A stretch of DNA of 32,042 nucleotides from Bacteroidales bacterium (lineage in GTDB: Bacteria > Bacteroidota > Bacteroidia > Bacteroidales > UBA12481). The notes beneath the pieces were generated by a model, which was not told where the DNA came from, did no database searches, and worked only from the letters and a program-made list of their open reading frames with translations. The position numbers and the translations under genes were made by a program. The DNA lies in the NCBI GenBank assembly GCA_012523435.1, contig JAAYIP010000094.1, forward strand, positions 1-32,042, written 5' to 3'. Each line of letters starts with the position of its first letter. Position 1 is the first letter of the stretch. This document shows positions 7,155 through 26,693 of the stretch, piece after piece.

Positions 7155-8051
7155 GTGGAAATCCGAATTGAGAATCTGGACAAGATTTATAAAAACGGTC
7201 ATAAAGCCCTAACGGATATTAACCTAACCATCGAGGACGGGATGTTCGGACTGCTGGGCCCTAACGGAGCCGGAAAATCCACCTTGATGCGCATTTTGGT
7301 GACCTTGATGAAGCCGTCAAACGGCAGGGTTTTGGTCAACGGCATGGATCTGCAAAAACACCGGAAAGAGGTCAGAGCACTGCTTGGCTATCTTCCCCAG
7401 GACTTTAGATTCTTTGCCAAGTATCGTACCTGGGAGTTTCTCGACTATTCGGCCCGGTTGGCGGGTCTGAAAAACCGAGCCCAGCGAAATCAGGCTGTGG
7501 AGCAAATGCTGGAGCAGGTTGGACTTTATGAAGCTCGCGATCGGCGTGCCGGAAGGCTATCCGGCGGGATGAAAAGAAGGCTGGGAATTGCTCAGGCCAT
7601 AATCGGCGATCCAAAAATCCTGATTGTTGATGAACCAACTACCGGGCTGGATCCTGATGAACGAATCCGCTTCCGGAATATCCTTTCCAAGATGACCGAA
7701 AAGGAGATGATCGTTATCCTCTCAACCCATATTGTTGGCGATATATCGAGTACCTGCCGCAGTATGGCCCTCCTGGAAAAGGGGAAGCTGGTATTCGTAG
7801 GAGCACCTGACGAGCTGATCGACCGTTCAAAGGGCCATGTCTTCCAGATGACCGTGTCAACCAAAGAGTTTGAGGAGATAAAAGAAAAATACAACGTGAT
7901 CTCAACTATCCCTTCGGTCGAAGGATGGGATATCCAGGTGGTTGCTGAAGATACGGGCGATCTGCCTTCAACACTTATTGAGCCTAACCTGGAACATGCT
8001 TACGTCTATTTTATGGAACTGCTGCTGAACAAGAATAAAGAACTTTTTTAG
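7155..8051 (+). CDS. ABC transporter ATP-binding protein (ABC-2 type), first gene of the ABC/RND operon
   Basis: The 298-residue protein is a complete ABC nucleotide-binding domain with a C-terminal extension. In order: beta-1/A-loop IRIENLDKIYKNGHKAL (Y12), Walker A GPNGAGKS (35-42), Q-loop YLPQD (Q82), signature LSGGMKRR (135-142), Walker B ILIVDE (155-160), D-loop GLDP and H-loop STHI (H192). The start is GTG at 7155. It should energise the membrane protein encoded 2 bases downstream. The C-terminal part (GHVFQMTVS onwards) resembles the tail of the ATPase domain fused to the second RND pump in the same operon (GHVWQVEVS), and both share GLDP-ERIRFRN and STHI--DISS-C; the two ATPases are clearly paralogous. 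The substrate is unknown. Confidence 0.93.
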   Translation: MEIRIENLDKIYKNGHKALTDINLTIEDGMFGLLGPNGAGKSTLMRILVTLMKPSNGRVLVNGMDLQKHRKEVRALLGYLPQDFRFFAKYRTWEFLDYSARLAGLKNRAQRNQAVEQMLEQVGLYEARDRRAGRLSGGMKRRLGIAQAIIGDPKILIVDEPTTGLDPDERIRFRNILSKMTEKEMIVILSTHIVGDISSTCRSMALLEKGKLVFVGAPDELIDRSKGHVFQMTVSTKEFEEIKEKYNVISTIPSVEGWDIQVVAEDTGDLPSTLIEPNLEHAYVYFMELLLNKNKELF

Positions 8052-8053
8052 CC

Positions 8054-11000
8054 ATGAAAACAATACGAACCATCCTGACCATAGCCTGGTTTGATATGCT
8101 GATCCTGTTCAGGAGCTGGTTTTTCCGCATTTTTAGCGGGCTGGTCCTCCTGTTCCTGTTGGTCATGAACCTCGCTATGATGGGGGAATCATCCGGTAAC
8201 TGGGGAGTAATCGGCATTGCGTCGAACATCCCTTATTTCAATATCCTCTTCCTGAGCATTAGCCAGACCTTCATCGCCATGTTTCTGGCGTTGGATTTCC
8301 TTAAGCGGGACAAGAAATTGGATACCTCAGAGGTTATCTATACCCGCTCGATGTCCAACTGGTCGTATGTTTGGGGTAAGACCATCGGAATCCTTGGAGT
8401 TTTCCTGGTGCTCAACCTCTTAGTACTGATTCTGGCGTTGATCATCAATCTGGTTTCCCAGAATGTAGCCATCGATTGGCTGGCTTATCTTTATTATCCG
8501 TTGCTGATTACTATCCCTTCGCTGATATTCGTGTTGGGCCTCTCCTTCCTGGTCATGTCGCTGGTAAAAAACCAAGCTATCGCCTTGGTGATCCTTCTGG
8601 GTTATACCGGGCTGATCCTGTTCTTCGGCAAAGCCCACGGTGATTATGTTTTTGATTTCATCGGCAACCTGATCCCCATGGTTCACTCAGATGTGACGGG
8701 GTTTGGATACGAGGGACGCCTGGTCTTACAACGCCTGATCTACCTGATGCTTGGATTATCCTTTATCTCAGCTAGTATTCTGTTGCTGAAGCGATTACCT
8801 CAATCGAGAGTTCTCTCCGCAACCACCTGGTTGATGACTTTCACTTTCGGTATCTTGGCCGGAGCCGGAATCCTTTACTATACCTCCACGGCTTCGGCGG
8901 ATCAAAAATACCGGGCCGACCTGATTGCGCTGAACGATCAGCACGACAATCTGCCCGTATTGTCGCTCGACCAGTGTGACCTGACCGTGGATCATAAAGG
9001 TGACAAGCTAGCCATTACTGCTGCCATGCAGCTTTCAAATGCCACGCTCAATCCAATCGAAAATACCGTTCTTAATTTGAACCCAGGCTTTAAAATCAAC
9101 TCACTCGAAATTAACGGCGCAAAATCTACTTTCGAACAAAAGGAGCATCTGCTGCTGCTAAAATTTCCAGGGCCACTGCTTCCGGGCGATACGATCCGTT
9201 TGCAGATGGATTACAGCGGATCAGTTGATGAAAGGGTCTGTTATCTTGATATTAAGAAGGAACAAGCTGATGAGAAATGGGGACCTGATTTTATCGTGTC
9301 GATCAAAAAACGTTTCGCCATTGTCGAACCAAACTATGTTATCGTAACTCCAGAGTCGGCCTGGTACCCAACCCCCGGAGTCCTTCACGGTTCAAACCTT
9401 TCCGTATTGCCGGTGTGGAACTTCACCACTTTCAACGCTAAAGTGAAAAGTGCTTCCGGCCTTCAACCCATCATGCAGGGTCCGGCCGAACAAGAGGGCG
9501 ATTATTGGAGGTTTGTACCGGAGAACCAACTAACTGGATTAACCCTGATTATTGGGCCATACGAAAGCCGAACCTTAAATACAGAAGATGTAGATTTTGA
9601 GTTAAATATACTGAAGGGGCACGATTACTTCAGTGCTGTTCTGGATTCAGTCGCGGATACCCTTCCGCGCTTTGTGGGTGACATGAAGCAAGATCTGGAA
9701 CGACGGCTGGGATTATCATATGCCTATCCAAGGTTGCGGATCGTTGAAGTTCCGGCTCAGTTCTACTCCTATTCGAGGTTGTGGGTCAAGCACCGTGAAT
9801 TTGTTCAGCCGGAAATGCTGCTGGTCCCGGAAATGGGAACCATGCTCAGCCAGGCTGGATTTGCCCAGTCGTACAAAATGATGGAGAAGCGTCTCAAGCA
9901 GAGCCAGGAGTCCTTGTCAGAGACCGAGATTCAGCTCCGCGTTCTGAACAATTTCTTGTCAACCAATTTCATCCCCGGGACAGACGATTTTCGGTTCCGG
10001 TTCAACGCTGGTTCCCGATCTGTTCAACTGGATAATGAAAAGAGGTACTCAGTCTTTCCCCATTTCTTTACCTATGTCAATTATGTTGGATCAAAAGAGT
10101 ACCCAATTCTCAATACCGCGCTGGAATCATATATAAGTAACACCGGTGAATCTGGAATGATGGGAGGATGGGGCGGAATGGGAATCTCTGGTTTAAACGT
10201 ATCAGAACAGGCAAATGTTGATTTGCAAAAAAAATCGTTTAAAGATTTGTTAGCCAGTGATTTGGATAATTATAATCTCCGGCAGGTGATTGATGCTAAG
10301 GGGCGGTATTTCTTTACTTACCTGGAGGCCATCGCCGGATCTGAAGAGTTTATGCCCTTCTTGCTTGGTGAGTTGCAGCGAAATAAGCATCAGGTTTATG
10401 ATTATTCAACATTTCGGGAGAATTTCCTGGAGCGGTTTGGGTATGACATGGACGAATTTGCCAATGAATGGTATTCAGGGCGACAGTTACCTGCATTCCT
10501 GGTTGGGAATGTCCGTGTGATCGAAGTGCAACAGGGTGATTATACTCGGTATCAATTGCTATTCGATGTATCCAATCCATCCGAGACTTCCGGATTGCTC
10601 CAAATTACGCTAAGAGCTGGTCGTGGAGGTATGGGAGGCGGCCGTGGAGGTGGCTTTGGAATGCGAGGTGGTGGCAGTTCTTTCGCCCTAGCGGGGCGGG
10701 ATGCCAACACGGAGAAGTTCTTGATCATGCCTCCTAATGAGGCTCTCCAGATTGGCTATGTGTTGGATGAACAACCACGCGGAATGTCGGTGAACACCAT
10801 GGTCTCTACAAATCTCCCTGTATCAGTCAGTTTCCCGTTTCCGGAAGTGGAGAAAGTCAAAGGTTATACCCCATTTGAGGGAATGCGACCGATTCCCATG
10901 CTCTTAACGATGGCAGGGGAGGGGGAGATTGTCATCGACAACGAAGATCCGGGCTTTTCAACTACTGGAAAGGCTGCCGATAGCCGGTTAGTGAGATGGT

Positions 11001-11494
11001 TCAATATAAATAAACCAACTGACGATGTCCCTTATGTGGCGATGCAGATGTGGCGTCCTCCGCAAAATTGGACCCCCATCATCCAGTCGGGCTTCTATGG
11101 CGATTTTGTCCGCTCTGCCTTGTATGTGAAGTCGGGCGACGGAACCCAGGTAGCTGAATGGAGAACTATCATTCAGGATCCTGGTTATTATGAAGTGATG
11201 GCCTATATTAATCCGATGACTGCTCGTATGGGGATTCGCATGGGCGGTCAGGGCGGCCGGGGAGGTGGTGGCCCTGGTGGCGGGATGCCGGAGATACCGG
11301 ATGAATACCACTTTACGGTAGATCATGACGAAGGGCAGGACGAAGTGGTTGTTGCCCTGAAGAGTGCCGAAACTGGATGGAACAGCCTGGGATCCTTCTA
11401 TTTCTCGGCTGACACCTCACGGGTGGAGCTGAATAACAAGAATAGCGGTCGAACTGTCGTGGCTGATGCAGTGAAGTGGGTTAAGCAGAAGTAA
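8054..11494 (+). CDS. ABC-2 permease fused to M1-aminopeptidase-like region (no HExxH) and golvesin-type C-terminal domain
   Basis: The 1146-residue protein combines three parts. Residues 1-275 form an ABC-2 type permease with about six membrane helices (first at about 26-43) plus one near 257-276. Residues about 300-830 form a large extracytoplasmic region reminiscent of the M1 aminopeptidases found fused to ABC permeases: beta-rich start, then LRIVEVPAQFYSYSRLW and a helical part. No HExxH zinc motif occurs anywhere, so it is presumably non-catalytic. Residues about 957-1146 (IVIDNEDPGFSTTG, then GYYEVMAYI, and finally GWNSLGSFYFSAD and VVADAVKWV) match the golvesin/xanthan-lyase-type carbohydrate-binding-like domain. 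Glycine-rich runs occur at 855-874 and 1060-1078. It pairs with the ATPase 2 bases upstream. The permease call is firm; the M1 relation is moderate. Confidence 0.8.
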   Translation: MKTIRTILTIAWFDMLILFRSWFFRIFSGLVLLFLLVMNLAMMGESSGNWGVIGIASNIPYFNILFLSISQTFIAMFLALDFLKRDKKLDTSEVIYTRSMSNWSYVWGKTIGILGVFLVLNLLVLILALIINLVSQNVAIDWLAYLYYPLLITIPSLIFVLGLSFLVMSLVKNQAIALVILLGYTGLILFFGKAHGDYVFDFIGNLIPMVHSDVTGFGYEGRLVLQRLIYLMLGLSFISASILLLKRLPQSRVLSATTWLMTFTFGILAGAGILYYTSTASADQKYRADLIALNDQHDNLPVLSLDQCDLTVDHKGDKLAITAAMQLSNATLNPIENTVLNLNPGFKINSLEINGAKSTFEQKEHLLLLKFPGPLLPGDTIRLQMDYSGSVDERVCYLDIKKEQADEKWGPDFIVSIKKRFAIVEPNYVIVTPESAWYPTPGVLHGSNLSVLPVWNFTTFNAKVKSASGLQPIMQGPAEQEGDYWRFVPENQLTGLTLIIGPYESRTLNTEDVDFELNILKGHDYFSAVLDSVADTLPRFVGDMKQDLERRLGLSYAYPRLRIVEVPAQFYSYSRLWVKHREFVQPEMLLVPEMGTMLSQAGFAQSYKMMEKRLKQSQESLSETEIQLRVLNNFLSTNFIPGTDDFRFRFNAGSRSVQLDNEKRYSVFPHFFTYVNYVGSKEYPILNTALESYISNTGESGMMGGWGGMGISGLNVSEQANVDLQKKSFKDLLASDLDNYNLRQVIDAKGRYFFTYLEAIAGSEEFMPFLLGELQRNKHQVYDYSTFRENFLERFGYDMDEFANEWYSGRQLPAFLVGNVRVIEVQQGDYTRYQLLFDVSNPSETSGLLQITLRAGRGGMGGGRGGGFGMRGGGSSFALAGRDANTEKFLIMPPNEALQIGYVLDEQPRGMSVNTMVSTNLPVSVSFPFPEVEKVKGYTPFEGMRPIPMLLTMAGEGEIVIDNEDPGFSTTGKAADSRLVRWFNINKPTDDVPYVAMQMWRPPQNWTPIIQSGFYGDFVRSALYVKSGDGTQVAEWRTIIQDPGYYEVMAYINPMTARMGIRMGGQGGRGGGGPGGGMPEIPDEYHFTVDHDEGQDEVVVALKSAETGWNSLGSFYFSADTSRVELNNKNSGRTVVADAVKWVKQK

Positions 11495-11563: not shown

Positions 11564-13033
11564 ATGAAAGCTAGAACGTTCTTAGGGGTGGCAATTTTTT
11601 TCGCTGGTTTAACCGGACTGGCTCCCCTGCATTCGCAGCAATTGATCAAACTAGATGATGCGCTGCAGATCGCTGCACAGAACAGCCCGGACATCAAGCG
11701 GGTTGAGCTGAGCCTAATCCGCACCCAGGAGTTGCTTAAGGCAACCCAGGCGTCAATGAAATCTAATTTCCGCTTCACCCTGAATCCGATCGGCTACTCG
11801 CACGACAGAGCTTTTAATGAATTGATCGGAGATTATAATACGCAGGAGAATCTGAGCAGTGCGGGGACCTTTACTGTATCACAACAGTTACCCTGGACCG
11901 ATGGTAATATCTCACTTAATAACCGATTTGCCTGGCAGCGGGCTTATAGTGAGTATGCCGACCGTACCACTTCCCAGTTTACTAATAACCTAAGGATCCA
12001 ATACGATCAGCCCCTCTTTACCTATAACCGGATTAAAATGCAGCTGGCCGGTCTGGAGCTGGACTTTGAAAATACCCAGCTGAACTACAATATTCAAATG
12101 CTCAATCTAGAGCGTTCGGTTGCCCAACAGTTTTATGCTGTTTTTAATCAACAAATGCGCGTCGAAATTGCTAAGGAAGAGCATGAGAATCAGAAAGTTA
12201 ACTATGAAATTATCAAAAATAAGGTTGAAGGGGAGCTGGCCCGATTAGAAGAGCTGTTTCAGGCTGAACTGAACCTGGCCTCCAGTAAATCGAGCTGGGA
12301 CAACAGTCAAGTTAGCCTAGAGAATGCTAAAGATCAGTTCAAAATTTTGATCGGCATGGACCTTTTTAACGAGATCGATATCCTAGCTAATCCGATCGTG
12401 GACACCGTACCTGTCGATCTGAACCTGGCTATCGAGTATGCCCTGGCAAACCGGATGGAATTGAGGCAAAGGCAGATCAGTATCGAGAATGCGCAGTTTG
12501 ACTTGGTCAGAACTATGGCTACCAACGAGTTTGCTGGAAACTTTTCATTGGCAGTAGGTCTCTTTGGAGACAACGAGCAGCTTCCAAAAATTTATTCAAA
12601 TCCGACGGATAACGAGCAAATCAGCCTGTCATTTCAGATTCCAATCTTTGATTGGGGTGAGCGAAAAGCCAGAATCAAAGCATCACAAACAAGCATTGAA
12701 ACACAGAAGCTTAACATGGAAGATGAGCGCAACACCATTATCCAAACTGTCCGCCAGGTTTATCGAAACTTGCAGAACCTGCTGAATCAGATTGATATTG
12801 CTCAACAGAACGTTAGGAATGCCCAGTTGACTTACGATATCAATCTAGAGCGTTATAAGAATGGCGATTTGACCGGGATGGATCTGAGCTTGTACCAGAA
12901 TCAGCTTTCTTCGAAGAAACTTGATTTGGTCAACGCTCAGATTAATTACAAGTTAGAATTGCTGAATATGAAGATTCAAACCCTGTACGATTGGGAAACC
13001 AAGACTGCGATTGTTCCACAAACATCTAAATAA
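11564..13033 (+). CDS. TolC-family outer membrane efflux protein
   Basis: The 489-residue protein starts with a signal peptide (residues 1 to about 24, ending PLHSQ) and continues LIKLDDALQIAAQNSPDIK, the usual first helix of outer membrane efflux proteins. Two homologous halves with long coiled-coil helices follow (about 150-270 and 360-475), rich in Q, N, A and L, separated by beta segments; the second repeat begins DLNLAIEYALANRMELRQR near residue 285. Trimers form the outer membrane channel and periplasmic tunnel of tripartite pumps. It is the only TolC-like gene of the operon and must serve both RND pumps and possibly the ABC modules. It lies 69 bases after the permease fusion gene and 12 bases before the adaptor gene. 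Confidence 0.92.
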   Translation: MKARTFLGVAIFFAGLTGLAPLHSQQLIKLDDALQIAAQNSPDIKRVELSLIRTQELLKATQASMKSNFRFTLNPIGYSHDRAFNELIGDYNTQENLSSAGTFTVSQQLPWTDGNISLNNRFAWQRAYSEYADRTTSQFTNNLRIQYDQPLFTYNRIKMQLAGLELDFENTQLNYNIQMLNLERSVAQQFYAVFNQQMRVEIAKEEHENQKVNYEIIKNKVEGELARLEELFQAELNLASSKSSWDNSQVSLENAKDQFKILIGMDLFNEIDILANPIVDTVPVDLNLAIEYALANRMELRQRQISIENAQFDLVRTMATNEFAGNFSLAVGLFGDNEQLPKIYSNPTDNEQISLSFQIPIFDWGERKARIKASQTSIETQKLNMEDERNTIIQTVRQVYRNLQNLLNQIDIAQQNVRNAQLTYDINLERYKNGDLTGMDLSLYQNQLSSKKLDLVNAQINYKLELLNMKIQTLYDWETKTAIVPQTSK

Positions 13034-13045
13034 TCATTACCGAAA

Positions 13046-14116
13046 ATGAAATCGATCCGAAACCCCTTAGTTGTTCTGGTTTTTTCCGGATTAACCCTCA
13101 TCCTGATCAATGGATGCCGTACCCAGCAAACCGACGCTACCACAGAAGTGGCTGTGCCGGTCTCCATTATGGACATCAGGCCAGCGTCAATTGAGGAATA
13201 TATTGAAACCAATGGAACTGTCTATCCAACGCAGGAGGTAGAATTAAAATCGGAAATGACAGGACGTTATTATCTCCAAAATAATCCCCGAACTGGTAGG
13301 CCATGGGCTTTGGGCGACCGGGTCAGGACAGGAGATCTGATTGTGAAGGTTGAAGACGAGGAGTATGTGTCTAATATTCAAATCGATTCAAAGGGAATAA
13401 ACCTGGAAGTTTATAAAAATGAGGTTGAAAAGCAACAGTCTCTTTACGAAAAAGGGGGAGCTACCCTGCGGGAACTTAAAAACTCGGAGCAAACTTTCAT
13501 CAATGCGGATTATGCTTATAAAAGTGCTCAGTTACAGCTGCAAAAGATGAATGTGATTGCTCCTTTTGACGGAGTTATTGTGGATTTGCCTTACTATACC
13601 AAAGGCAACAAACTCTCGTCTGGGCAGTCGCTGGTAAAGATTATGGATTACCGGAAACTCTATATGGAGTTTCAGCTTCCCGAAAAGAACCTGACTAATG
13701 TGAATGTTAATCAGCGGGTTAGGGTACTGAATTATGCCCTTCCAGATGATACGCTTTATGGGAATATCAGTCAACTCTCTCCAGCTATTAATCCCGATAC
13801 AAGAAGTTTCAAGGGAACTATAATGATTCAGAACGATGACTTGCGCCTGAGGCCTGGGAGTTACATCAAGTCGGAGATCATAACCCTGCGAAACGATAGC
13901 ACGATAGTGATTCCAAAGAAAATCATTGTTTCGCGCCAGAGAGGGAAGACAGTTTTTGTTGTTGACCAAAATACTGCCATGGAACGCGTGATTACCACTG
14001 GACTGGAAAATCCGGATTCGGTCGAAGTGATCCGCGGATTAAAAATGAATGATCGGGTTGTCATTGAGGGATTTGAGACACTAGGCAACCGCTCGAAAGT
14101 TAAAATCGTCCGTTAA
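13046..14116 (+). CDS. RND efflux periplasmic adaptor subunit (membrane fusion lipoprotein)
   Basis: The 356-residue protein has a lipoprotein signal with lipobox LING-C24, so it is probably anchored in the inner membrane by lipid. The order is typical of AcrA/MexA-type adaptors: first beta-barrel strand and half lipoyl motif (about 40-110, with GDRVRTGDLIVKVED), a short coiled-coil hairpin (about 115-165), the second half lipoyl motif (VIAPFDGVIVDLPYY and then GQSLVKIMD), the beta-barrel (about 200-285) and the membrane-proximal domain (about 285-356, ending NRSKVKIVR). It bridges the inner-membrane RND pumps to the TolC-like channel. There is a single adaptor for two RND genes. It lies 12 bases after the TolC gene and 20 bases before the first RND gene. 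Confidence 0.93.
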   Translation: MKSIRNPLVVLVFSGLTLILINGCRTQQTDATTEVAVPVSIMDIRPASIEEYIETNGTVYPTQEVELKSEMTGRYYLQNNPRTGRPWALGDRVRTGDLIVKVEDEEYVSNIQIDSKGINLEVYKNEVEKQQSLYEKGGATLRELKNSEQTFINADYAYKSAQLQLQKMNVIAPFDGVIVDLPYYTKGNKLSSGQSLVKIMDYRKLYMEFQLPEKNLTNVNVNQRVRVLNYALPDDTLYGNISQLSPAINPDTRSFKGTIMIQNDDLRLRPGSYIKSEIITLRNDSTIVIPKKIIVSRQRGKTVFVVDQNTAMERVITTGLENPDSVEVIRGLKMNDRVVIEGFETLGNRSKVKIVR

Positions 14117-14136: not shown

Positions 14137-17100
14137 ATGAGAAAATTAACCGAGTTTTCAGTCAGGTACCCGGTCACCGTTACCATGTTTATCCTGGCTG
14201 TGGTGCTGTTGGGGTTCATCTCTTTTGGAAAACTGGGGACCGACCTGTTTCCAAAGCTTAACAATCCCCGGATTTATGTAGAGTTAAAAGTTGGAGAGCG
14301 TCCCCCCGAAGAAGTTGAGAAGCTGTTTGTCGATCCGATTGAATCGGTGTGTATCAGGCAGGGTAAGGTAGTTGGTGTTTCTTCGGTTACCCGTGTGGGG
14401 ACTGCCCAGGTAACGGTGGAGTATGCCTGGAACGCCGATATGGATGACGCCTTTTTGGAACTCCAGAAGGCCTTGGGAACTTATTCCCAAAATGCTGAGA
14501 TCGACGAACTTCTGATAACCCAGCACGATCCCAACGAGTCGCCGGTGATGTTGGTGGCATTGCAGCACGAAAATCTCACCGATATGGACGAGTTAAGACG
14601 TATCGGGGAAAACTATATCCGGAACGAACTGGTCAGATTGGAAGGGGTAGCAGATGTCCAGCTCGAAGGTCAGGAACAGAAGGAAGTGCTGATCAGCACT
14701 AATGAGTATTTGCTCAATGCCTTTGGCGTGACAACTACCGAGATCACCTCGCAAATCACAAACTTTAACCGGAATATCTCTGGAGGGTCCATCGTCGAAA
14801 TGGGTACCCAATACGTTATTAAAGGAGTCAGCGTATTTTCTAACCTGAATGATATCCGGCAACTGATTGTGGGGTTTAAAACGGAGACCACCACCGAAAA
14901 TGCCACCGCAACAAACACATCGCGCGTTCCTGTTTTTCTCAGGGATGTAGCTGAGGTGCAATTCATCAACAAAGAACCCGATAATATCGTTCGAATAAAC
15001 GGTCAACGAGCCCTCGGACTGGCTATCTACAAAGAGCCCAGTTTTAATACCGTTAAGGCCGTTGAAGAGTTGAAGAAAGCTCTGGTAAAAATCAACAAGG
15101 CCCTTCCCGGATACACCTTTCAAATCATCCAGGATCAGGGAACCTTTATTTCATCAGCCATCGGTGAAGTGCAAAATAGTGCACTCATCGGAATCCTTCT
15201 GGCAGTATTCGTATTGTTTATCTTCCTGAGACGCATCGGAACCACCCTAATCGCTAGTGTCGCAATCCCGGTATCCATTATTGCTACATTTAACTTGATG
15301 TACTTCAATGGCCTGACTATCAACATTATGACGTTAGGTGGTCTTGCATTAGGTGCGGGTATGTTGGTGGATAACGCTATCGTTGTTTTGGAGAATATTT
15401 TCCGGAACCTGGAAAAGGGAATGAGCATCCGAGAGGCTGCCATCACCGGGACCTCACAGGTTGGCGGGGCAATTTTTGCTGCTACGCTGACAACCATCGT
15501 GGTCTTTCTGCCTATTGTATATCTCCATGGTGCCTCTGGGGAGTTGTTTAAAGATATGGCTTGGACCGTAGCTTTCTCGTTGATCTGCTCCCTAATAGTC
15601 GCTATTCTGGTCATTCCAATGCTCTTCCCTAGAGTTATCAAGCCGATCGCTGCCGATAAACAAGCCAAAGCGATGGGCTTTAACTGGTATCCCCGTTTTC
15701 TAGATAAGGTATTGAAAATTAAGTGGTTAATTGTTTTTGCTGCTTTTATACTGATCGGAGTGGCAGCACTTCTTATCAAGCCCATCGGGAGCGAATTTAT
15801 GCCGAGAACCGATGCTCGTGAATTTACGGTAGAAGTGAGGTTGCCCGAAGGTACTCAACTGGAGCGAACAGACGAGGCTGTGAAATCCCTTGAAGGAATG
15901 ATCCGTGAATTGATCGAAGAGGACCTGGAGAAACTGTATGTCCGTGTCGGACCATCAGCTAGCGCGGTGAGCAGTCAATCCATTTTTGAAACCGAAAACT
16001 CTGCTTCCATTAAAATCATACTGACTAACGAGGCACATCGCTCCAGCAGCGTGTTACTGGCGGACTTAGGGAAGCTCTTTGAAACGATGCCTGATATCGA
16101 ATTTAACTTTGTCCTCGACGAGACAGCCCTGATGGCTACTTTGGGAACTGATGAAGCTCCTGTTGTGGTAGAAGTTGTTGGCGAGAAACTGGATCAGATC
16201 GAACGATTAGTGACAGAGGAAGAGGAGATCCTTCATAATGATCCGGATCTTTTTAATATAGAATCGTCAATCAAACCCGGAGCTCCTGAGATTGAGTTAG
16301 TTTTGGATCGATACCGGGCTGGAATGTATAATATCACTATAGATCAGGTCATTAGTCAGTTGACGCAATTGCTGACCGGAACATCAGCTGGTCAGTTCGA
16401 CTATAGTGGAGAGATGACGGACATACGACTGAAGTTACCTGATGTAGAACTCAGTCAGCTTGAGAACCTTGAGCTTCGAGCGGGCGCAAGTAAGGTCAGG
16501 CTAAGTGAAATAGCCACGGTACGCCATGTAGTTGCTCCGAAAGAGATTCTCCGGACCAATCAAAATCGGGTAGGGAAGGTTTCGGCTCAAATCAAGAAAG
16601 GAAAGCCGGTGAATCAAGTGATCAATGACCTGAACCAGTCTCTTAGCGGGGTTGTTCTACCTCCGGGTTATACGATCCGTCAAGCCGGTGAGGAAGTTAA
16701 GCGGAAAGAATCGATGAAGAATCTCGGGTTTGCGCTTCTTTTATCACTGGTATTGGATTATATGGTACTTGCTTCCCAGTTTGAATCGCTCATTCATCCA
16801 TTCACGATCATGTTGACCATTCCATTAGCTGTGGTAGGATCTGTTTTTCTCTTCTTCATTCTTGGTCTCTCCTTCAATATGATGGCTTATATTGGGATCA
16901 TCATGCTGGCGGGGATTGCCGTGAACAACGCTATTATCCTGCTGGATTCGATTAATCGATTGAAACGAGCGGGGATTAGCCGCAGAGAGGCCATACTGGA
17001 AGCAGGTCACCAGCGCATCCGTCCCATCCTGATGACCAGCCTTACCACGATTTTGGGATTATTGCCAATGGCTATCGGGTTTGGACCCAATGCCGTCTTA

Positions 17101-17238
17101 AGGACTCCCATGGCTCTGGCTGTAATTGGTGGTTTGGTTACCAGCACGCTGTTAACCCTGATCGTAATCCCCTGTGTGTATGATCTGTTAGATCGGATCA
17201 TGCCTCAAAGAAAATATGTCGATGGTCAAATCAGCTAA
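14137..17238 (+). CDS. RND efflux pump inner-membrane subunit (first of two)
   Basis: The 1033-residue protein has the complete RND layout: TM1 (about 12-30), first periplasmic porter/docking block (about 35-335), TM2-TM6 (about 345-500), TM7 (about 530-548), second periplasmic block (about 555-855) and TM8-TM12 (about 862-1015). TM4 contains GAGMLVDNAIVVLENIFRN, where D412 corresponds to AcrB D407, but the next residue is N413 in place of AcrB D408. TM10 reads GIAVNNAIILLDSIN, with N930 where AcrB has K940. This D-N/N-N pattern occurs in a broad COG0841 subclass, so it is not by itself degeneration. The 12-base spacing to a second RND gene suggests a heteromeric pump, as in MdtBC. Substrate unknown. 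Confidence 0.93.
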   Translation: MRKLTEFSVRYPVTVTMFILAVVLLGFISFGKLGTDLFPKLNNPRIYVELKVGERPPEEVEKLFVDPIESVCIRQGKVVGVSSVTRVGTAQVTVEYAWNADMDDAFLELQKALGTYSQNAEIDELLITQHDPNESPVMLVALQHENLTDMDELRRIGENYIRNELVRLEGVADVQLEGQEQKEVLISTNEYLLNAFGVTTTEITSQITNFNRNISGGSIVEMGTQYVIKGVSVFSNLNDIRQLIVGFKTETTTENATATNTSRVPVFLRDVAEVQFINKEPDNIVRINGQRALGLAIYKEPSFNTVKAVEELKKALVKINKALPGYTFQIIQDQGTFISSAIGEVQNSALIGILLAVFVLFIFLRRIGTTLIASVAIPVSIIATFNLMYFNGLTINIMTLGGLALGAGMLVDNAIVVLENIFRNLEKGMSIREAAITGTSQVGGAIFAATLTTIVVFLPIVYLHGASGELFKDMAWTVAFSLICSLIVAILVIPMLFPRVIKPIAADKQAKAMGFNWYPRFLDKVLKIKWLIVFAAFILIGVAALLIKPIGSEFMPRTDAREFTVEVRLPEGTQLERTDEAVKSLEGMIRELIEEDLEKLYVRVGPSASAVSSQSIFETENSASIKIILTNEAHRSSSVLLADLGKLFETMPDIEFNFVLDETALMATLGTDEAPVVVEVVGEKLDQIERLVTEEEEILHNDPDLFNIESSIKPGAPEIELVLDRYRAGMYNITIDQVISQLTQLLTGTSAGQFDYSGEMTDIRLKLPDVELSQLENLELRAGASKVRLSEIATVRHVVAPKEILRTNQNRVGKVSAQIKKGKPVNQVINDLNQSLSGVVLPPGYTIRQAGEEVKRKESMKNLGFALLLSLVLDYMVLASQFESLIHPFTIMLTIPLAVVGSVFLFFILGLSFNMMAYIGIIMLAGIAVNNAIILLDSINRLKRAGISRREAILEAGHQRIRPILMTSLTTILGLLPMAIGFGPNAVLRTPMALAVIGGLVTSTLLTLIVIPCVYDLLDRIMPQRKYVDGQIS

Positions 17239-17250
17239 GGAATCAGTCAG

Positions 17251-20200
17251 ATGAGGATTATTGTAACCAGAAAAGTCCTGATCTCCATGGTCTTTCTCGG
17301 GCTAACCCTGCTCGGGATAGTATCCTACCGGCAACTACAGGTTGAACTGTTTCCAAATGCCCAGGCACCCTACCTGGTGGTGCAGGTTTCTTCGAATGTC
17401 GAAGTGGACCCGGCTTATATGGAGCGTCAGGCAGTGATCCCCCTGGAGGGAGCTATTGGTGGATTGCAGGGAATCGAAGAGATTTCGTCAACCGCATCCC
17501 AAAGAAGGGGAACGATCACCATTTCTTATACACCAAAGACAGATCTTAAATACGCTCAGCTCAAGCTACAAGAGCGGATTAATGAAGTCAAAGGCTCCAT
17601 CCCGGAAGAGTTTCAGGTGATGGTGGTCAAAGTCGACCTCGAACAGATGGCTAACCAGGCTATGGCGCTCGAAGTGAGAGGTACAGGCGGCGTTAATCGG
17701 ATCAGACAGATCGCTGACGAAAAAATCAAACCCAGGCTTGAGAATATTGACGGAGTGGCCGGCATTACCGTTTACGGTGGTCAGGAGAAAATGCTGGAGG
17801 TGACACTCAATCGCGATGCCTGTGAGGCCTACGGAATCACTCCCTATCAGGTCAGAAATGCCATAAGCCAGAACGGGCGCGACCGTACCTATGTCGGCCG
17901 GGTGTTCCAAAGCAACCGCATGCATTTTGTTCATGTGATGGCCGAATATACCGATGCCCGCGAAATAGAAAATATAGTCGTCAGGGAAGCCGGACCAGTT
18001 TTGCTTCGCGATGTAGCCTCGGTCTATTTTGGCGTGAAGGAGGAGACCTCTTTTTCGCGGGTTAACGGCCTCGAATCGGTTACCATTAACCTGGTTGGAG
18101 ACTCCCAGGTCAACCTCATCGACCTGTCCGATTCAGTCAAGGAAATGGTTAATCAGCTGAATAAGGAGTTTGAACCCCTGGAAATTGAGATTATGATCCA
18201 GGAGAATATGGCCGAGATCATGGAGGAGAATATCAAACAGATTGTTAATCTGGCCATTACGGGTGGTGCTATTGCGGTTTTTATCCTTTGGATCTTCCTG
18301 AAGAATGTCCGCCTGGTGACCAGCATTGCACTTTCTATTCCAATTTCGGTTTACGTTGCCTTTAACTTTTTCTATGCCGCGGGGATTTCTATCAATAGCC
18401 TGACACTAGTTGGTATGGCACTGGCAATTGGGATGCTGGTGGATAACAGTGTGGTTGTTCTGGAAAATATATACCGGCATGCGGCCGGGCGAACCCATCC
18501 GGATATTGCTGTGGTGAAGGGTACGCGGGAGGTTTGGAGGTCAATCCTGGCGTCAACACTGACCACAATCACAGTTTTTCTCCCCTTCCTCTTTTCCGAT
18601 AACTACATGATCCGCATCCTCGGAAGTAACATCGGGATATCCATCATCTCAACACTACTGGTTTCGATGATGGTTGCCCTGTTGCTGATCCCCATGCTGA
18701 CCCACCTGATCCTCCAGCGCCAACCAGATAAACGTCCGGTAATCTTTGAGAAAGTTTCGCTTCATAAACGATTGATTCAGTTTTATCTGCTCATTCTCAA
18801 GTCTAGCATGAGAAATCCGGCTGCTACAATTGTCGGAGCCCTGGTGCTGTTTTTTGTGAGCCTCTTCGGGGTTCTCGCGATCTCAACCAATACACTGCGA
18901 GAAGCCGAGACCCGTGAGCTACGTTTGGCAATTACGATGCCTCAGGGAACCACCCTGGAGGTAACCGATCTTGCAGTGAAGGCCATGGAAGAACGACTCA
19001 TGGAGATTCCGGAGCGAGAGGAGATCGTCACCGAAACACAGGAAGCTCAAGCGACTGTTCGTATTAAACTGGTGGAGAAGTTCGAGAAGGTGGCCGACAG
19101 GAAACTCCCAGAAATTAAGTCAGATATAGAGAAAAGAATCCGGAATATCCCCAACGTTGAATACGAATTTCAGCAGTTTTCATCCAGTGGTGGTTTCTCT
19201 GCAGGAGGGGCTGGCGGTGGCGGAGGCCAGTCGGGCGGAGGCCTGGAATCATTCCTTGGCGTTGGCATTCAACAAGAAAGAGTTATCATTAAGGGTCAGG
19301 ATTTTGATATGATGAAATCTGTGGGTGAAGACCTCACCTACTACCTGGAAGATCTGCCCACCATTCAACAGGCAAATTTAGGAGTTCAGGATAACCGACC
19401 AGAAGTGAGAATGGCGTTCAACACCAGAGAGATGGGAGAGAGAGATGTCCCCCTTAACTCGGTGACATCAGAACTCAGCTCATTCCCAACCGAATTCAGC
19501 ACGGGCGTTACTTTTAAAGAAGGAACTGAAGAGTACGATATCCTGATAAAATATGACCTGCCGGATGATGAGGAGGAGAGAACACGTACCATGGCCGATC
19601 TCCAGGAGATGGATATTCCGTCAAGCACCGGTGCTCGCCATCGGCTTACCGACCTGGCCAATATCTATTTCGCTTTTGGAATGGGTAATATCAACAGATT
19701 AAACCAGGAAAAGCAGATTCAAATCACCTACCGGTTTGATGCTGAGACAAATGCATCAAAACCAGTGCTTGAAGCAGCCAGAGAAGAGGTGGATGCCCTG
19801 GTTGCCAGCTTGATTGTTCCAGCTGGGATCGCCATTGAAGTTCAGCATGAAGAGAACGAGTTTAAGGATTTCTATTTTCTGATAGCTGCTGCCTTTATCT
19901 TCATTTTCATGATCATGGCAGCGGTTTTCGAGTCTATTAGCACCCCTTTTGTACTGCTATTTTCGATACCGTTGGCAGGCATCGGTTCATTCCTGGCCAT
20001 TTTACTTACCAACAACTCCCTGATCAATGCCAATACCCTGACTGGTTTCATTATTCTGATTGGTATTGTGGTGAATAACGGTATTATCCTGATCGACTAT
20101 ACTAATGTGTTGAGGAAACAGGGATTTCGTAGAAGCAGAGCACTGATGGTAGCTGGTTTGGCACGGCTACGCCCTATTCTGATAACTGCGGCTACCACCA

Positions 20201-21987
20201 TAGTGGCTATGTTGCCGCTGGCCCTTGGTAAATCGGAGTATGTCAGCCTCATCGGAGCACCTTTTGCCATCACGGTAATCGGAGGCCTTGCCCTGAGTAC
20301 GATTCTTACACTGGTTTTCATTCCCACCCTCTATTCGGGACTGGAAAATTCCCTGAAATGGATGCGGGATCAGTCGACGGGCACCAAGATATTTATGTAC
20401 ACTACCATCCTGCTGCTGGCAGTGCTAATCTATTTCCAAATCCACACCTTTATCTGGCAGCTGGTGCTGATGCTCCTGGTGATTCTCGGCGTCCCGGCAT
20501 CTACCTGGTTCCTGCGTAATAGTCTGAAAAAGGCTAGCTCGAAGGTTATCGCTGATGATGAACCCATTCTAATCCAGATTCAAAACCTGGTGAAGATTTA
20601 CGAGCGCGACAACCGCTTTACCCGTCAGTGGAAAGCCGGTACTGCTATCCGTCGACGCCTTGGAATCGAAAAAGAGGTTACCTCCTGGAAAGACCTGGAA
20701 AACCTGGTTTGGCAGCTGCCACTGCTGGGCTTCCTGATCTTCTTTGTCTATTTCTACCTTGAAGCAGGAATCTGGATCCTACTGCTGAGTTTTGCGATTT
20801 GGTTCTCATTGTTAGGCATTCAACAATCAGTCAATCAGTTAATTAATTACAAGAAGAGCATAGGTAAAGGTATTTGGCGACTGGTGCCTAAAGGGCTCTC
20901 CAAATGGATTGGGGCATTGATTCTATGGGGATTCCCGGTATTTAGCCTGGTGGTTTTTCATCAACGCTGGGGAAATATCGCTTTGGAGGTGATCATTGGT
21001 GTCTTGTGGTTCTTAGGGATCATTGTGTTCCTGACCTCTAATCGTTTGATGCGTGAAAAAGTCAATATCAACCGACTGAAAGGCCGATTTGCTGTTATTC
21101 GTCGCCGGTGGTACCAGTTGGTTCAATCTATCCCAGTTATCGGGAAAAAGCGTAAGCCATTCAAAGCACTTAAGGGTGTTTCAATGGAGATTGGGAATGG
21201 CATGTTTGGATTGCTGGGGCCTAATGGTGCCGGGAAGACAACCTTGATGAGGATCATCTGTGGCATCCTGGAGCAGAGTTATGGGAAGATTTGGATAAGT
21301 GGAATCGATACGCAGGAGAAACGGGAAGAGCTTCAAGGGCTGATTGGCTATTTGCCGCAGGAGTTTGGAATGTACGAAAACATGACTTCTGAAGAATACC
21401 TTAGTTACCAGGGAATTCTAAAGGGGATCAAAGATCCTGCTCTTCGTTCCGAACGGGTTGAATATGTGCTGAAAGCAGTGCATAAGTTCGATCGAAAAGA
21501 TGAAAAAATTAGTAGTTACTCGGGCGGGATGAAACAACGAATAGGGATTGCACAGATTCTGCTGCATTTACCAAGAATACTGGTAGTAGATGAACCCACG
21601 GCCGGTCTTGACCCACGTGAACGAATTCGTTTCCGTAATCTACTGGTTGAGCTTTCCAAAGAGCGCGTGGTGATCTTCTCAACCCACATTATTGAGGATA
21701 TTTCAAGCTCCTGTAATCGTGTCGCTGTGCTCGACCGTGGAGAGATGGTGTACCTGGGCGTTCCTGAAGCAATGGCACGTACCGCTGAGGGACACGTCTG
21801 GCAGGTGGAAGTCAGCCTCGCTGAGTTTGACAAACTGTCTGAGGAGTACAAGATTGTCCATCATATGAGAGACGGCAAGAAAATTCGGGTCCGCCTCCTA
21901 GCCGAGAAGCCTCCTATGCCGGATGCCATCCCGGTGAAACCATTGCTGGAAGATTCCTATTTATGGTTACTGAAGAAAGTGATCTGA
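17251..21987 (+). CDS. RND efflux pump fused to a C-terminal ABC ATPase domain
   Basis: This 1578-residue protein joins two transporter classes. Residues 1 to about 1035 are a full RND pump: TM4 reads GMLVDNSVVVLENIYRH (394-410) and TM10 GIVVNNGIILIDYTN (938-952), with a glycine-rich loop at 645-664. Two further helices follow (about 1047-1063 and 1067-1087). Then come LIQIQNLVKIYER (1107-1119), like a beta-1/A-loop of an ABC domain; about four helices (1152-1170, 1172-1190, 1219-1237, 1243-1262); and the rest of the ABC domain from 1303: Walker A GPNGAGKT (1323-1330), Q-loop YLPQE (Q1370), signature YSGGMKQR (1423-1430), Walker B ILVVDE (1443-1448), H-loop STHI (H1479). All ATPase motifs are intact. 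Helix parity keeps the ABC part cytoplasmic. The frame is continuous, with no internal stop or obvious recent junction. The ABC-2 permease gene follows after 1 base. Confidence 0.92.
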   Translation: MRIIVTRKVLISMVFLGLTLLGIVSYRQLQVELFPNAQAPYLVVQVSSNVEVDPAYMERQAVIPLEGAIGGLQGIEEISSTASQRRGTITISYTPKTDLKYAQLKLQERINEVKGSIPEEFQVMVVKVDLEQMANQAMALEVRGTGGVNRIRQIADEKIKPRLENIDGVAGITVYGGQEKMLEVTLNRDACEAYGITPYQVRNAISQNGRDRTYVGRVFQSNRMHFVHVMAEYTDAREIENIVVREAGPVLLRDVASVYFGVKEETSFSRVNGLESVTINLVGDSQVNLIDLSDSVKEMVNQLNKEFEPLEIEIMIQENMAEIMEENIKQIVNLAITGGAIAVFILWIFLKNVRLVTSIALSIPISVYVAFNFFYAAGISINSLTLVGMALAIGMLVDNSVVVLENIYRHAAGRTHPDIAVVKGTREVWRSILASTLTTITVFLPFLFSDNYMIRILGSNIGISIISTLLVSMMVALLLIPMLTHLILQRQPDKRPVIFEKVSLHKRLIQFYLLILKSSMRNPAATIVGALVLFFVSLFGVLAISTNTLREAETRELRLAITMPQGTTLEVTDLAVKAMEERLMEIPEREEIVTETQEAQATVRIKLVEKFEKVADRKLPEIKSDIEKRIRNIPNVEYEFQQFSSSGGFSAGGAGGGGGQSGGGLESFLGVGIQQERVIIKGQDFDMMKSVGEDLTYYLEDLPTIQQANLGVQDNRPEVRMAFNTREMGERDVPLNSVTSELSSFPTEFSTGVTFKEGTEEYDILIKYDLPDDEEERTRTMADLQEMDIPSSTGARHRLTDLANIYFAFGMGNINRLNQEKQIQITYRFDAETNASKPVLEAAREEVDALVASLIVPAGIAIEVQHEENEFKDFYFLIAAAFIFIFMIMAAVFESISTPFVLLFSIPLAGIGSFLAILLTNNSLINANTLTGFIILIGIVVNNGIILIDYTNVLRKQGFRRSRALMVAGLARLRPILITAATTIVAMLPLALGKSEYVSLIGAPFAITVIGGLALSTILTLVFIPTLYSGLENSLKWMRDQSTGTKIFMYTTILLLAVLIYFQIHTFIWQLVLMLLVILGVPASTWFLRNSLKKASSKVIADDEPILIQIQNLVKIYERDNRFTRQWKAGTAIRRRLGIEKEVTSWKDLENLVWQLPLLGFLIFFVYFYLEAGIWILLLSFAIWFSLLGIQQSVNQLINYKKSIGKGIWRLVPKGLSKWIGALILWGFPVFSLVVFHQRWGNIALEVIIGVLWFLGIIVFLTSNRLMREKVNINRLKGRFAVIRRRWYQLVQSIPVIGKKRKPFKALKGVSMEIGNGMFGLLGPNGAGKTTLMRIICGILEQSYGKIWISGIDTQEKREELQGLIGYLPQEFGMYENMTSEEYLSYQGILKGIKDPALRSERVEYVLKAVHKFDRKDEKISSYSGGMKQRIGIAQILLHLPRILVVDEPTAGLDPRERIRFRNLLVELSKERVVIFSTHIIEDISSSCNRVAVLDRGEMVYLGVPEAMARTAEGHVWQVEVSLAEFDKLSEEYKIVHHMRDGKKIRVRLLAEKPPMPDAIPVKPLLEDSYLWLLKKVI

Positions 21988-21988
21988 C

Positions 21989-22705
21989 ATGTTCAAGAAA
22001 AGAATACAAATAATCTGGAACTGGATCTTTAATATGGTCCGGTATTACCTGAAAGTCATATTCGCGGGGAAATTTATCTGGTTTCTTCTCGCCTCATTGG
22101 GATTTTTTGTCATCGTATTGCTGATCACACTGTTTTCTGGCAATACCATCCACTCCGGTGTGGTTTATGAATTACTCTTATACCCGGGATTGCTTTTGGT
22201 ATTCTACCCGATAGTCTTTGGGATACAGAATGATGAGGATACCCGGATACTGGAAATCCTATTCGGCATACCTAATTATCGGTACAAAATCTGGCTTGTC
22301 CGTTTGATCTTGATCTATTTTGTGGTATTCCTGATTCTTCTCCTGCTGGCTATGTTCGGCTCCTGGGCTATCGTGGATTTCTCCGTTTTTAATATGGCTT
22401 GGCACCTGATGTTCCCAATCTTTTTTATGGGTACTCTGGCCTTTCTTCTGTCTACTTTTATTAAGAATGGAATTGGCACAGGCGTAGTCCTGATCATTAT
22501 CGGGGTATTTTTTCTGATTCTGGCTGATGCGATCGCCCGAAGCAAATGGAACCTTTTCCTTAATCCCTTCACCATCCCTGATGGAATGAGTGAAACAGCC
22601 TGGAAATCAATTGTTCAGGACAATCGAATCATTCTGTTTGTCGGAATGATTCTATCTCTTTTAGGAGGCCTGACAAGCCTTCAGAAGCGAGAACGGTTTA
22701 TTTAG
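21989..22705 (+). CDS. ABC-2 type transporter permease
   Basis: The 238-residue protein is almost entirely hydrophobic, with about six membrane helices (near 30-50, 60-80, 102-124, 138-157, 163-183, 212-231) and no enzymatic motif. The loop GIQNDEDTRILEILFGIPN (78-96) between helices 2 and 3 fits the amphipathic coupling region of ABC-2 permeases such as NosY, where it contacts the ATPase. Its gene begins one base after the RND-ABC fusion ends, so the fused ATPase is its most likely partner. It lacks the large periplasmic extension of the other permease in the operon. It is the last gene of the operon and converges on the M64 peptidase gene with 14 bases between stops; no hairpin is obvious. 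Confidence 0.85.
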   Translation: MFKKRIQIIWNWIFNMVRYYLKVIFAGKFIWFLLASLGFFVIVLLITLFSGNTIHSGVVYELLLYPGLLLVFYPIVFGIQNDEDTRILEILFGIPNYRYKIWLVRLILIYFVVFLILLLLAMFGSWAIVDFSVFNMAWHLMFPIFFMGTLAFLLSTFIKNGIGTGVVLIIIGVFFLILADAIARSKWNLFLNPFTIPDGMSETAWKSIVQDNRIILFVGMILSLLGGLTSLQKRERFI

Positions 22706-25388: not shown

Positions 25389-26693
25389 ATGTTAAGGAAA
25401 CCTGCCTCCAAATGGTTAACCGGTATGAGTAAACGGTGGATTTTTTTTATCCTGACTATCCTGCTGGTTGTCATTTCATCTTGTGTGAGCCTCCGCAGGG
25501 GAACCCGCCAAATGACCACCTTGTCACTCTATAATCCTGGCCAGACAACCATACACCCCGAGTTCACAATCTATCACCACTCTGATACCGAAAGCTCCCT
25601 CTTTTTTCGATTGCTGTCGAGCGAACTGCTTTTTAATCAGGCTAATCCACAAATGAAAGATCAGGCCCGGGTGCGGTTGAGTTATGTGCTTTACGCATCT
25701 TTGGCAAATAATGAAGTAGCAGCCAGAGATACCCAGTCATTTGTCTTCGACCGGGATATCGTTGGAGAACAGGTGATCGGTAGCGTGAAAATTCCGACAG
25801 AACGAGGGAAAACCTACCTGATTGATGTCAGGCTTGATGATGTGTTGCGGAATACAACCTATCGGGATTATGTGTTGGCCGACCGTTTTTCTGAGTTTCC
25901 GCAACAAGATTATCTGCTCTTGACCTATCCGGGAAACCGAGTGAGTTTTCAGCGTTATTTTTATGCTGACGAGCATTTTCGGATCCTGAAAAAGAATACA
26001 CAAATCAATCAGATCTATATATCCATATTCTCTCCAAGAGATGTCTTGCCCTTACCGCCCTATTCAGTTGATACACCACTCGACCTGGCCCCTCTGCCGG
26101 ATTCTACCATCTCCGTCAGCTGGTCGGAGCAGCAGCTTTTCAGACTTGGACAACCAGGCATTTATGTTTTCCATGACGATCCATCACGATCAAGAGGCTT
26201 GGGATTGGCTCAGTTTGGCGATCGCTATCCACAAATCCGAGCCCCGGAAGATATGCTTCTGCCTCTTCAATACCTGATGACCCGTGAAGAGTATGCTGAC
26301 ATTATCCAAAATGCTGATATCAAGAGAGCAGTGGATGATTTTTGGCTTAATAAGGGGAAGACCATGGCCAATGCCCGCGATCTAATTCGGGTTTATTACA
26401 ACCGGGTGACCTTTGCCAATATCTATTTCGCCTCAAGCCGTCAGGGATGGCAAACCGACCGTGGAATGATCTTTCTGATCATGGGTCCACCTTCTGTTGT
26501 CGAAAAATCCGAGACAAGAGAGGTGTGGAAGTATGAGATGGCAGAAACTGAGCAGACTTACCGGTTCGATTTCGATCTGGCCGACGACTATTGGATGGGG
26601 TACGATTATTCTCTTAAACGCAGTGAGGAGCACAGAACTATCTGGAATAGAGCTGTGGAATCTTGGCGGAAAGGGAAAATATTCAGTTTATAA
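25389..26693 (+). CDS. GWxTD-domain lipoprotein
   Basis: The 434-residue protein begins with a lipoprotein signal: a basic segment, a hydrophobic stretch IFFILTILLVVIS and a lipobox ending at C32 (VISSC). A second ATG at 25425 (residue 13) would give a more standard signal length and is an alternative start. The middle is beta-rich. The C-terminal part contains the GWxTD signature, GWQTDRGMIFLIMGPPSVVE (353-372), followed by WKYE; this domain is found mainly in Bacteroidota and Chlorobi lipoproteins of unknown function. The protein should be anchored in the outer or inner membrane facing the periplasm. It is tightly linked to the channel gene upstream (2 bases) and rlmB downstream (8 bases). 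Biological role unknown. Confidence 0.85.
   Translation: MLRKPASKWLTGMSKRWIFFILTILLVVISSCVSLRRGTRQMTTLSLYNPGQTTIHPEFTIYHHSDTESSLFFRLLSSELLFNQANPQMKDQARVRLSYVLYASLANNEVAARDTQSFVFDRDIVGEQVIGSVKIPTERGKTYLIDVRLDDVLRNTTYRDYVLADRFSEFPQQDYLLLTYPGNRVSFQRYFYADEHFRILKKNTQINQIYISIFSPRDVLPLPPYSVDTPLDLAPLPDSTISVSWSEQQLFRLGQPGIYVFHDDPSRSRGLGLAQFGDRYPQIRAPEDMLLPLQYLMTREEYADIIQNADIKRAVDDFWLNKGKTMANARDLIRVYYNRVTFANIYFASSRQGWQTDRGMIFLIMGPPSVVEKSETREVWKYEMAETEQTYRFDFDLADDYWMGYDYSLKRSEEHRTIWNRAVESWRKGKIFSL

Follow-up and report, generated by a model that had tools for sequence, protein, structure and literature searches.

Can an ABC nucleotide-binding domain (NBD) be assembled from two pieces of chain that lie on either side of a membrane module? 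This question is raised by an open reading frame at 17251-21987 on the + strand of the window, a stretch of 32,042 nucleotides from a Bacteroidales bacterium, which encodes a protein of 1578 residues combining an RND permease with an ABC domain. Few protein domains are as uniform as the ABC NBD. The best explanation of the sequence comparisons and structural models presented below is that the C-terminal NBD of this RND-ABC fusion is, with high probability, discontinuous; it may be set in a hybrid export machine. According to its predicted anatomy, the chain leaves the NBD after residues 1107-1117, builds a membrane module with about four helices (residues 1118-1304), and rejoins the domain at strand 2.

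Layout and strand 1 of the fused NBD

The RND permease part comprises residues 1-1032 (17251-20346, + strand) and matches Pfam ACR_tran over residues 3-1029 (E 4e-170). It is followed by two hydrophobic segments, identified by hydropathy at residues 1042-1092 (20374-20526, +), which are found in nearly all homologues and were absent from an earlier note on this DNA. That note had read residues 1107-1119 (LIQIQNLVKIYER, nucleotides 20569-20607) as the beta-1/A-loop opening of an ABC domain, similar to the start of the operon's stand-alone ATPase, and had placed the continuation of the domain only from residue 1304, beyond an insert with about four hydrophobic segments. On the basis of profile, conservation, predicted structure and superposition, strand 1 and the A-loop were assigned to residues 1107-1117 (LIQIQNLVKIY; 20569-20601, +), with Tyr1117 as the A-loop residue.

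In place of a turn of 4 residues, strands 1 and 2 are separated by an insertion of 187 residues (1118-1304; 20602-21162, +). Its strong hydropathy segments lie at residues 1148-1195, which has the length of two helices, 1215-1238 and 1239-1267. Together with the predicted structure, hydropathy yields four predicted membrane helices at residues 1155-1169, 1172-1204, 1214-1240 and 1243-1269 (20713-21057, +), in line with the number of segments first proposed, and a further helical stretch is predicted ahead of strand 2 at residues 1281-1298 (21091-21144, +). The insert opens, right after the A-loop, with a predicted helix at residues 1121-1131 (20611-20643), within which Arg1125 is invariant and the aromatic residue 1127 nearly invariant; a role of this stretch at the nucleotide or at an interface is possible.

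The remaining NBD, including a C-terminal subdomain, occupies residues 1304-1578 (21160-21984, +) and is supported by a Pfam ABC_tran match (E 2.5e-28) and by its motifs: Walker A at 1323-1331, the Q-loop with Q1370, the signature YSGG at 1423-1426, Walker B with E1448, and the H-loop with H1479. As the earlier note had it, the domain resumes only with FKALKGVSMEIGNGMFGLLG at residues 1304-1323 (nucleotides 21160-21219), Walker A starting at 1323. The A-loop Tyr is thus 206 residues away from the Walker A Gly, compared with 23 in the stand-alone ATPase of the operon. Since the ABC_tran match in the fusion protein spans residues 1307-1451 and begins past strand 1, it cannot by itself locate this strand.

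A strand-1 profile of 12 positions was built from 20 stand-alone operon ATPases of different genomes and scored at every position of 26 fusion proteins. In the fusion protein of the window the motif ranked first among 1567 positions with 20.5 bits, the runner-up place in the linker scoring -6.2, and its score was reached by 1 of 3000 linker shuffles. The top position of the whole protein was x-I-x-I-x-N-L-V-K-I-Y or a close variant in all 26 homologues, and no good strand-1 candidate was detected by the profile scan in the residues just ahead of strand 2 of the fusion proteins. Among 28 aligned fusions, the A-loop Tyr and the Arg eight residues downstream were invariant (28/28), as were the Walker A Lys, the signature Ser, the Walker B Asp/Glu, the H-loop His and the Q-loop.

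The structure of the region was predicted twice. The first time, residues 1026-1578 were modelled from an alignment of six rows, with a poor and uninformative outcome (pLDDT 63, about 25 at strand 1, where no strand was formed). The second prediction covered residues 1096-1578 and used five fusion relatives and 41 NBDs cut to start at strand 2, so that these 41 rows carried no strand-1 information (one stray residue each). The resulting model (pLDDT 87.4, pTM 0.71) contains a complete NBD with a strand at residues 1108-1117 (pLDDT about 97), strand 2 at 1304-1314, four membrane-length helices within 1155-1269 and the helical stretch at 1281-1298. Superposition with VIA-align placed 235 of the 238 residues of 1vpl on the model at 1.5 A (Z 29.2), and aligned model residues 12 to 415 with residues 1 to 232 of the 1f3o chain (MJ0796); other solved ABC-2-type relatives likewise align over nearly the full length. 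In most solved chains, residue 1-2 falls on model residue 9-12 (protein residues 1104-1107). Provided that the start of the 1f3o alignment is free of gaps, Tyr1117 coincides with Tyr11 of MJ0796, which we take to be its A-loop residue. Stacking of Tyr1117 on adenine is a possibility. From the model and its superposition on solved NBDs, the domain is predicted to be an assembly of two chain segments around the membrane module, as had been proposed.

Residues 1107-1119 could instead be a chance resemblance or a dead remnant, with the true strand 1 just before residue 1303 or missing altogether. Such a reading would fit the shallow first prediction, in which the stretch was unstructured. It is highly improbable in view of the deeper prediction and superposition, which place these residues as strand 1, of the invariant A-loop Tyr, and of the top rank of the motif in every one of the 26 homologues, with nothing comparable near strand 2. 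The finding that the earlier note had named as decisive against its own proposal, a strand contributed by the residues just before 1303, was not obtained in the model: these residues are mostly helix (1281-1298), and residues 1108-1117 lie within the fold.

The catalytic elements of an ABC NBD (Walker A, Q-loop, signature, Walker B with the catalytic Glu, and H-loop) are all present. The strand-1 part of the antiparallel sheet, with its aromatic A-loop residue, is provided by the predicted strand at 1108-1117 and the invariant Tyr. What the fusions lack is the short turn between strands 1 and 2 that makes the NBD one continuous domain, the Tyr and Walker A being 131-247 residues apart. The discontinuity is a variation of layout and not of catalytic motifs.

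Distribution and ancestry of the fusion

Matches to the fusion were found in 19 of 99 genomes in a search for relatives, the source genome included. In 18 of these 19 the strand-1 stretch was followed by a long insert or the locus was cut by a contig end, and one had a shorter insert; the alignment of homologues thus bears out that the insertion is conserved. When sampling was widened within the order, 52 of 393 genomes carried the fusion with its insert, and an even sample of the phylum gave the full fusion in the source genome and five others. Named relatives that carry it are Parabacteroides massiliensis, Carboxylicivirga and Ancylomarina euxinus.

The split also occurs outside Bacteroidota, in one assembly each of KSB1 (L171) and Latescibacterota (L025) and in assemblies of Gammaproteobacteria. 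The gammaproteobacterial fusions have textbook strand-1 motifs, e.g., PPLLEVKHLGKIYG, with a gap of 210-219 residues to Walker A. Any one of these draft assemblies may contain misbinned contigs; in the gammaproteobacterial order, four genomes agree. A tree was computed from 95 NBDs; the 33 fused ones among them all fell into one clade with a support of 1.0, and the stand-alone ATPases of the operons formed another. As all fused NBDs belong to one clade, the split most simply arose once.

The length of the insert varies across the fusions. Two members with short inserts (L136 and L137) have about two helices fewer and are nested within the long-insert group, which indicates that the module can be lost in part with strand 1 retained. 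Longer inserts were observed at L138 (11560-16440) and L135 (1166-6085), with 247 and 230 residues, respectively, from the Tyr to Walker A; the extra residues follow strand 1 and precede the first membrane helix. No RND-NBD fusion without an insert was found among about 1,090 genomes at the search thresholds applied, three of the five genome searches having favoured insert-bearing ones by their query or threshold, and the absence of such fusions is a weak conclusion. Viral contigs scanned for further fusions yielded NBDs only.

Operon partners and proposed mechanism

The fusion belongs to a conserved operon of seven genes in the order ATPase, ABC-2 permease, outer membrane factor, adaptor, RND, RND-ABC and small putative permease, all on the + strand in the window. 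In Bacteroidota loci the same order is kept as far as each contig stretch extends, a single end gene at most escaping detection. The first gene (7155-8051) encodes a stand-alone ABC ATPase, a paralogue of the fused NBD with 42% identity. The second (8054-11494) encodes a protein of 1146 residues with an N-terminal ABC-2-type permease, a large periplasmic part and a Golvesin_C end. Support for the ABC-2 assignment comes from its family, in which ABC2_membrane_2 was hit by 12 of 18 members with a best E of 7e-9; the protein of the source genome itself scores under the curated cut-off of ABC2_membrane_3. Its orthologues in Bacteroidota loci have about 1100 residues, and the zinc-protease motif HExxH was found in none of 19 orthologues. 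The operon continues with a TolC-like outer membrane factor (11564-13033; Pfam OEP), a HlyD/AcrA-like periplasmic adaptor (13046-14116; Pfam HlyD_D23) and a stand-alone RND permease (14137-17238) that shares 26% identity with the fusion's RND part.

The last gene (21989-22705) encodes a membrane protein of 238 residues, which is a probable ABC-2-type permease partner by its position and by a weak family assignment. Its family (about 240 residues) lies directly downstream of the fusion in nearly all loci of sufficient length; its match to an ABC-2 membrane family is weak (one of 19 members, E 7e-4), and when its profile was compared with that of the large permease, the probability came out at just 1%. 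Two further observations concern the surroundings of such genes. In a gammaproteobacterial assembly, three relatives of the large permease with about 1160-1185 residues are encoded next to genes for an ATPase, an adaptor and an RND (L085), the RND-ABC fusion of that genome being on a separate contig (L168). In the window, a GWxTD-domain protein is encoded at 25389-26693, downstream of an MscS-like channel gene and a peptidase M64 gene and outside the conserved operon.

On the likeliest reading, the operon encodes a hybrid ABC/RND tripartite exporter, in which the stand-alone ATPase would be the partner of the fused NBD and the insert would anchor the latter to the bilayer. For such an exporter we tentatively propose the following mechanism, which is a fair possibility and not a firm conclusion. 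The fused NBD and the paralogous stand-alone ATPase would supply the ATP-dependent dimer of a single ABC-2-type exporter, with one membrane half contributed by the N-terminal region of the 1146-residue protein and the other by the 238-residue protein. This exporter would be covalently tied to a two-subunit RND pump, consisting of the stand-alone RND and the fusion, and the RND pair would use one shared adaptor and one shared outer membrane channel. The hairpins on either side of strand 1 may pin the NBD core to the bilayer beside the RND helices, and the closing and opening of the NBD dimer could be passed on to the RND part or to the partner permease. Strand 1 has extra membrane helices on either side, six in all, so that the edge hairpin of the NBD would be held at the membrane surface; this tie of the NBD core to the bilayer may matter for function.

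A different membrane half is conceivable, namely the insert together with the two preceding helices instead of the 238-residue neighbour. These amount to about six helices, the number found in a usual ABC-2 half. We consider this improbable: the inserted module gave no convincing match to a Pfam or NCBIfam family, ABC-2 families included, and no detectable relation to the 238-residue protein, the insert is much shorter in one lineage, and the 238-residue protein follows the fusion in nearly all loci.

The proton-relay residues of the RND parts were compared with those of AcrB, with the register taken from an alignment to MdtB. The fusion has a full-length ACR_tran match and thus belongs to the RND (HAE-type) permeases, but the relay of AcrB (D407, D408, K940, R971 and T978) is incomplete in the fusions: the equivalents of D407, R971 and T978 are kept, D408 is replaced by Asn or Thr, and K940 always by Asn. 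The stand-alone operon RNDs have Asn at the Lys940 equivalent, save for one Ser, and mostly Asn in place of the second TM4 Asp. Both RND parts of the operon (14137-17238 and 17251-20346 in the window) retain the first Asp of TM4 as well as the Arg and Thr of TM11.

This retention, and the completeness of both NBDs, would suit an arrangement in which the split NBD is real and the link is a tether only, with an ABC-2 exporter and a proton-driven RND pump sharing adaptor and channel and no energetic coupling between them. This arrangement is plausible, though we are inclined to doubt it. Both RNDs are without the equivalents of Lys940 and the second TM4 Asp, unlike the two other RNDs of the source genome, which have the usual Asp-Asp and Lys, and a membrane module kept inside the NBD across phyla goes beyond the needs of a tether. 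A stronger form of coupling, in which cycling of the NBD dimer is passed to the RND helices via the inserted hairpins, takes the place of the partly lost proton relay or adds to it, and so powers the RND pump with ATP, seems unlikely. A physical link between ATP and RND-type efflux in the hybrid exporter proposed here is suggested by the predicted folding of the arrangement into one ATPase and by its recurrence in several bacterial phyla.

Comparison with known systems

The literature searched, most subscription journals lying outside its coverage, yielded no account of an RND permease fused to an ABC domain or of membrane helices splitting an NBD. A conserved membrane module in the turn between strands 1 and 2 would represent a new way of coupling an ATPase to the membrane. 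The ABC and RND superfamilies are normally viewed as alternative energy sources for tripartite efflux. As the fusion unites the two, the driving or gating of an RND pump by ATP can be tested in one protein, and, should ATP indeed power the RND part, ABC and RND would form one energy-coupled export machine.

The fused NBD shares its whole fold, its motifs and its C-terminal subdomain with ABC-2-type ATPases such as GldA, DrrA, NosF, TM0544 (1vpl) and TM_1403 (4yer). These ATPases are continuous, with a short turn between strands 1 and 2, whereas the fused NBD has about 183 extra residues with membrane helices at this place and, unlike them, is joined to an RND permease. With AcrB and MdtB/MdtC, the fusion system has in common the full RND architecture, the adaptor and the outer channel. 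MdtBC consists of two different RND subunits encoded in one operon, and the same is true here; one of the subunits, however, adds about six membrane helices and an ABC NBD, and the equivalents of Lys940 and the second TM4 Asp of AcrB are Asn. The whole set can also be likened to MacAB-TolC, an ATP-driven exporter with an adaptor and a TolC-like channel. The single chain of MacB begins with the NBD, after which come four helices and a periplasmic domain; in contrast, the present set has no match to a MacB-type family and includes an RND pair.
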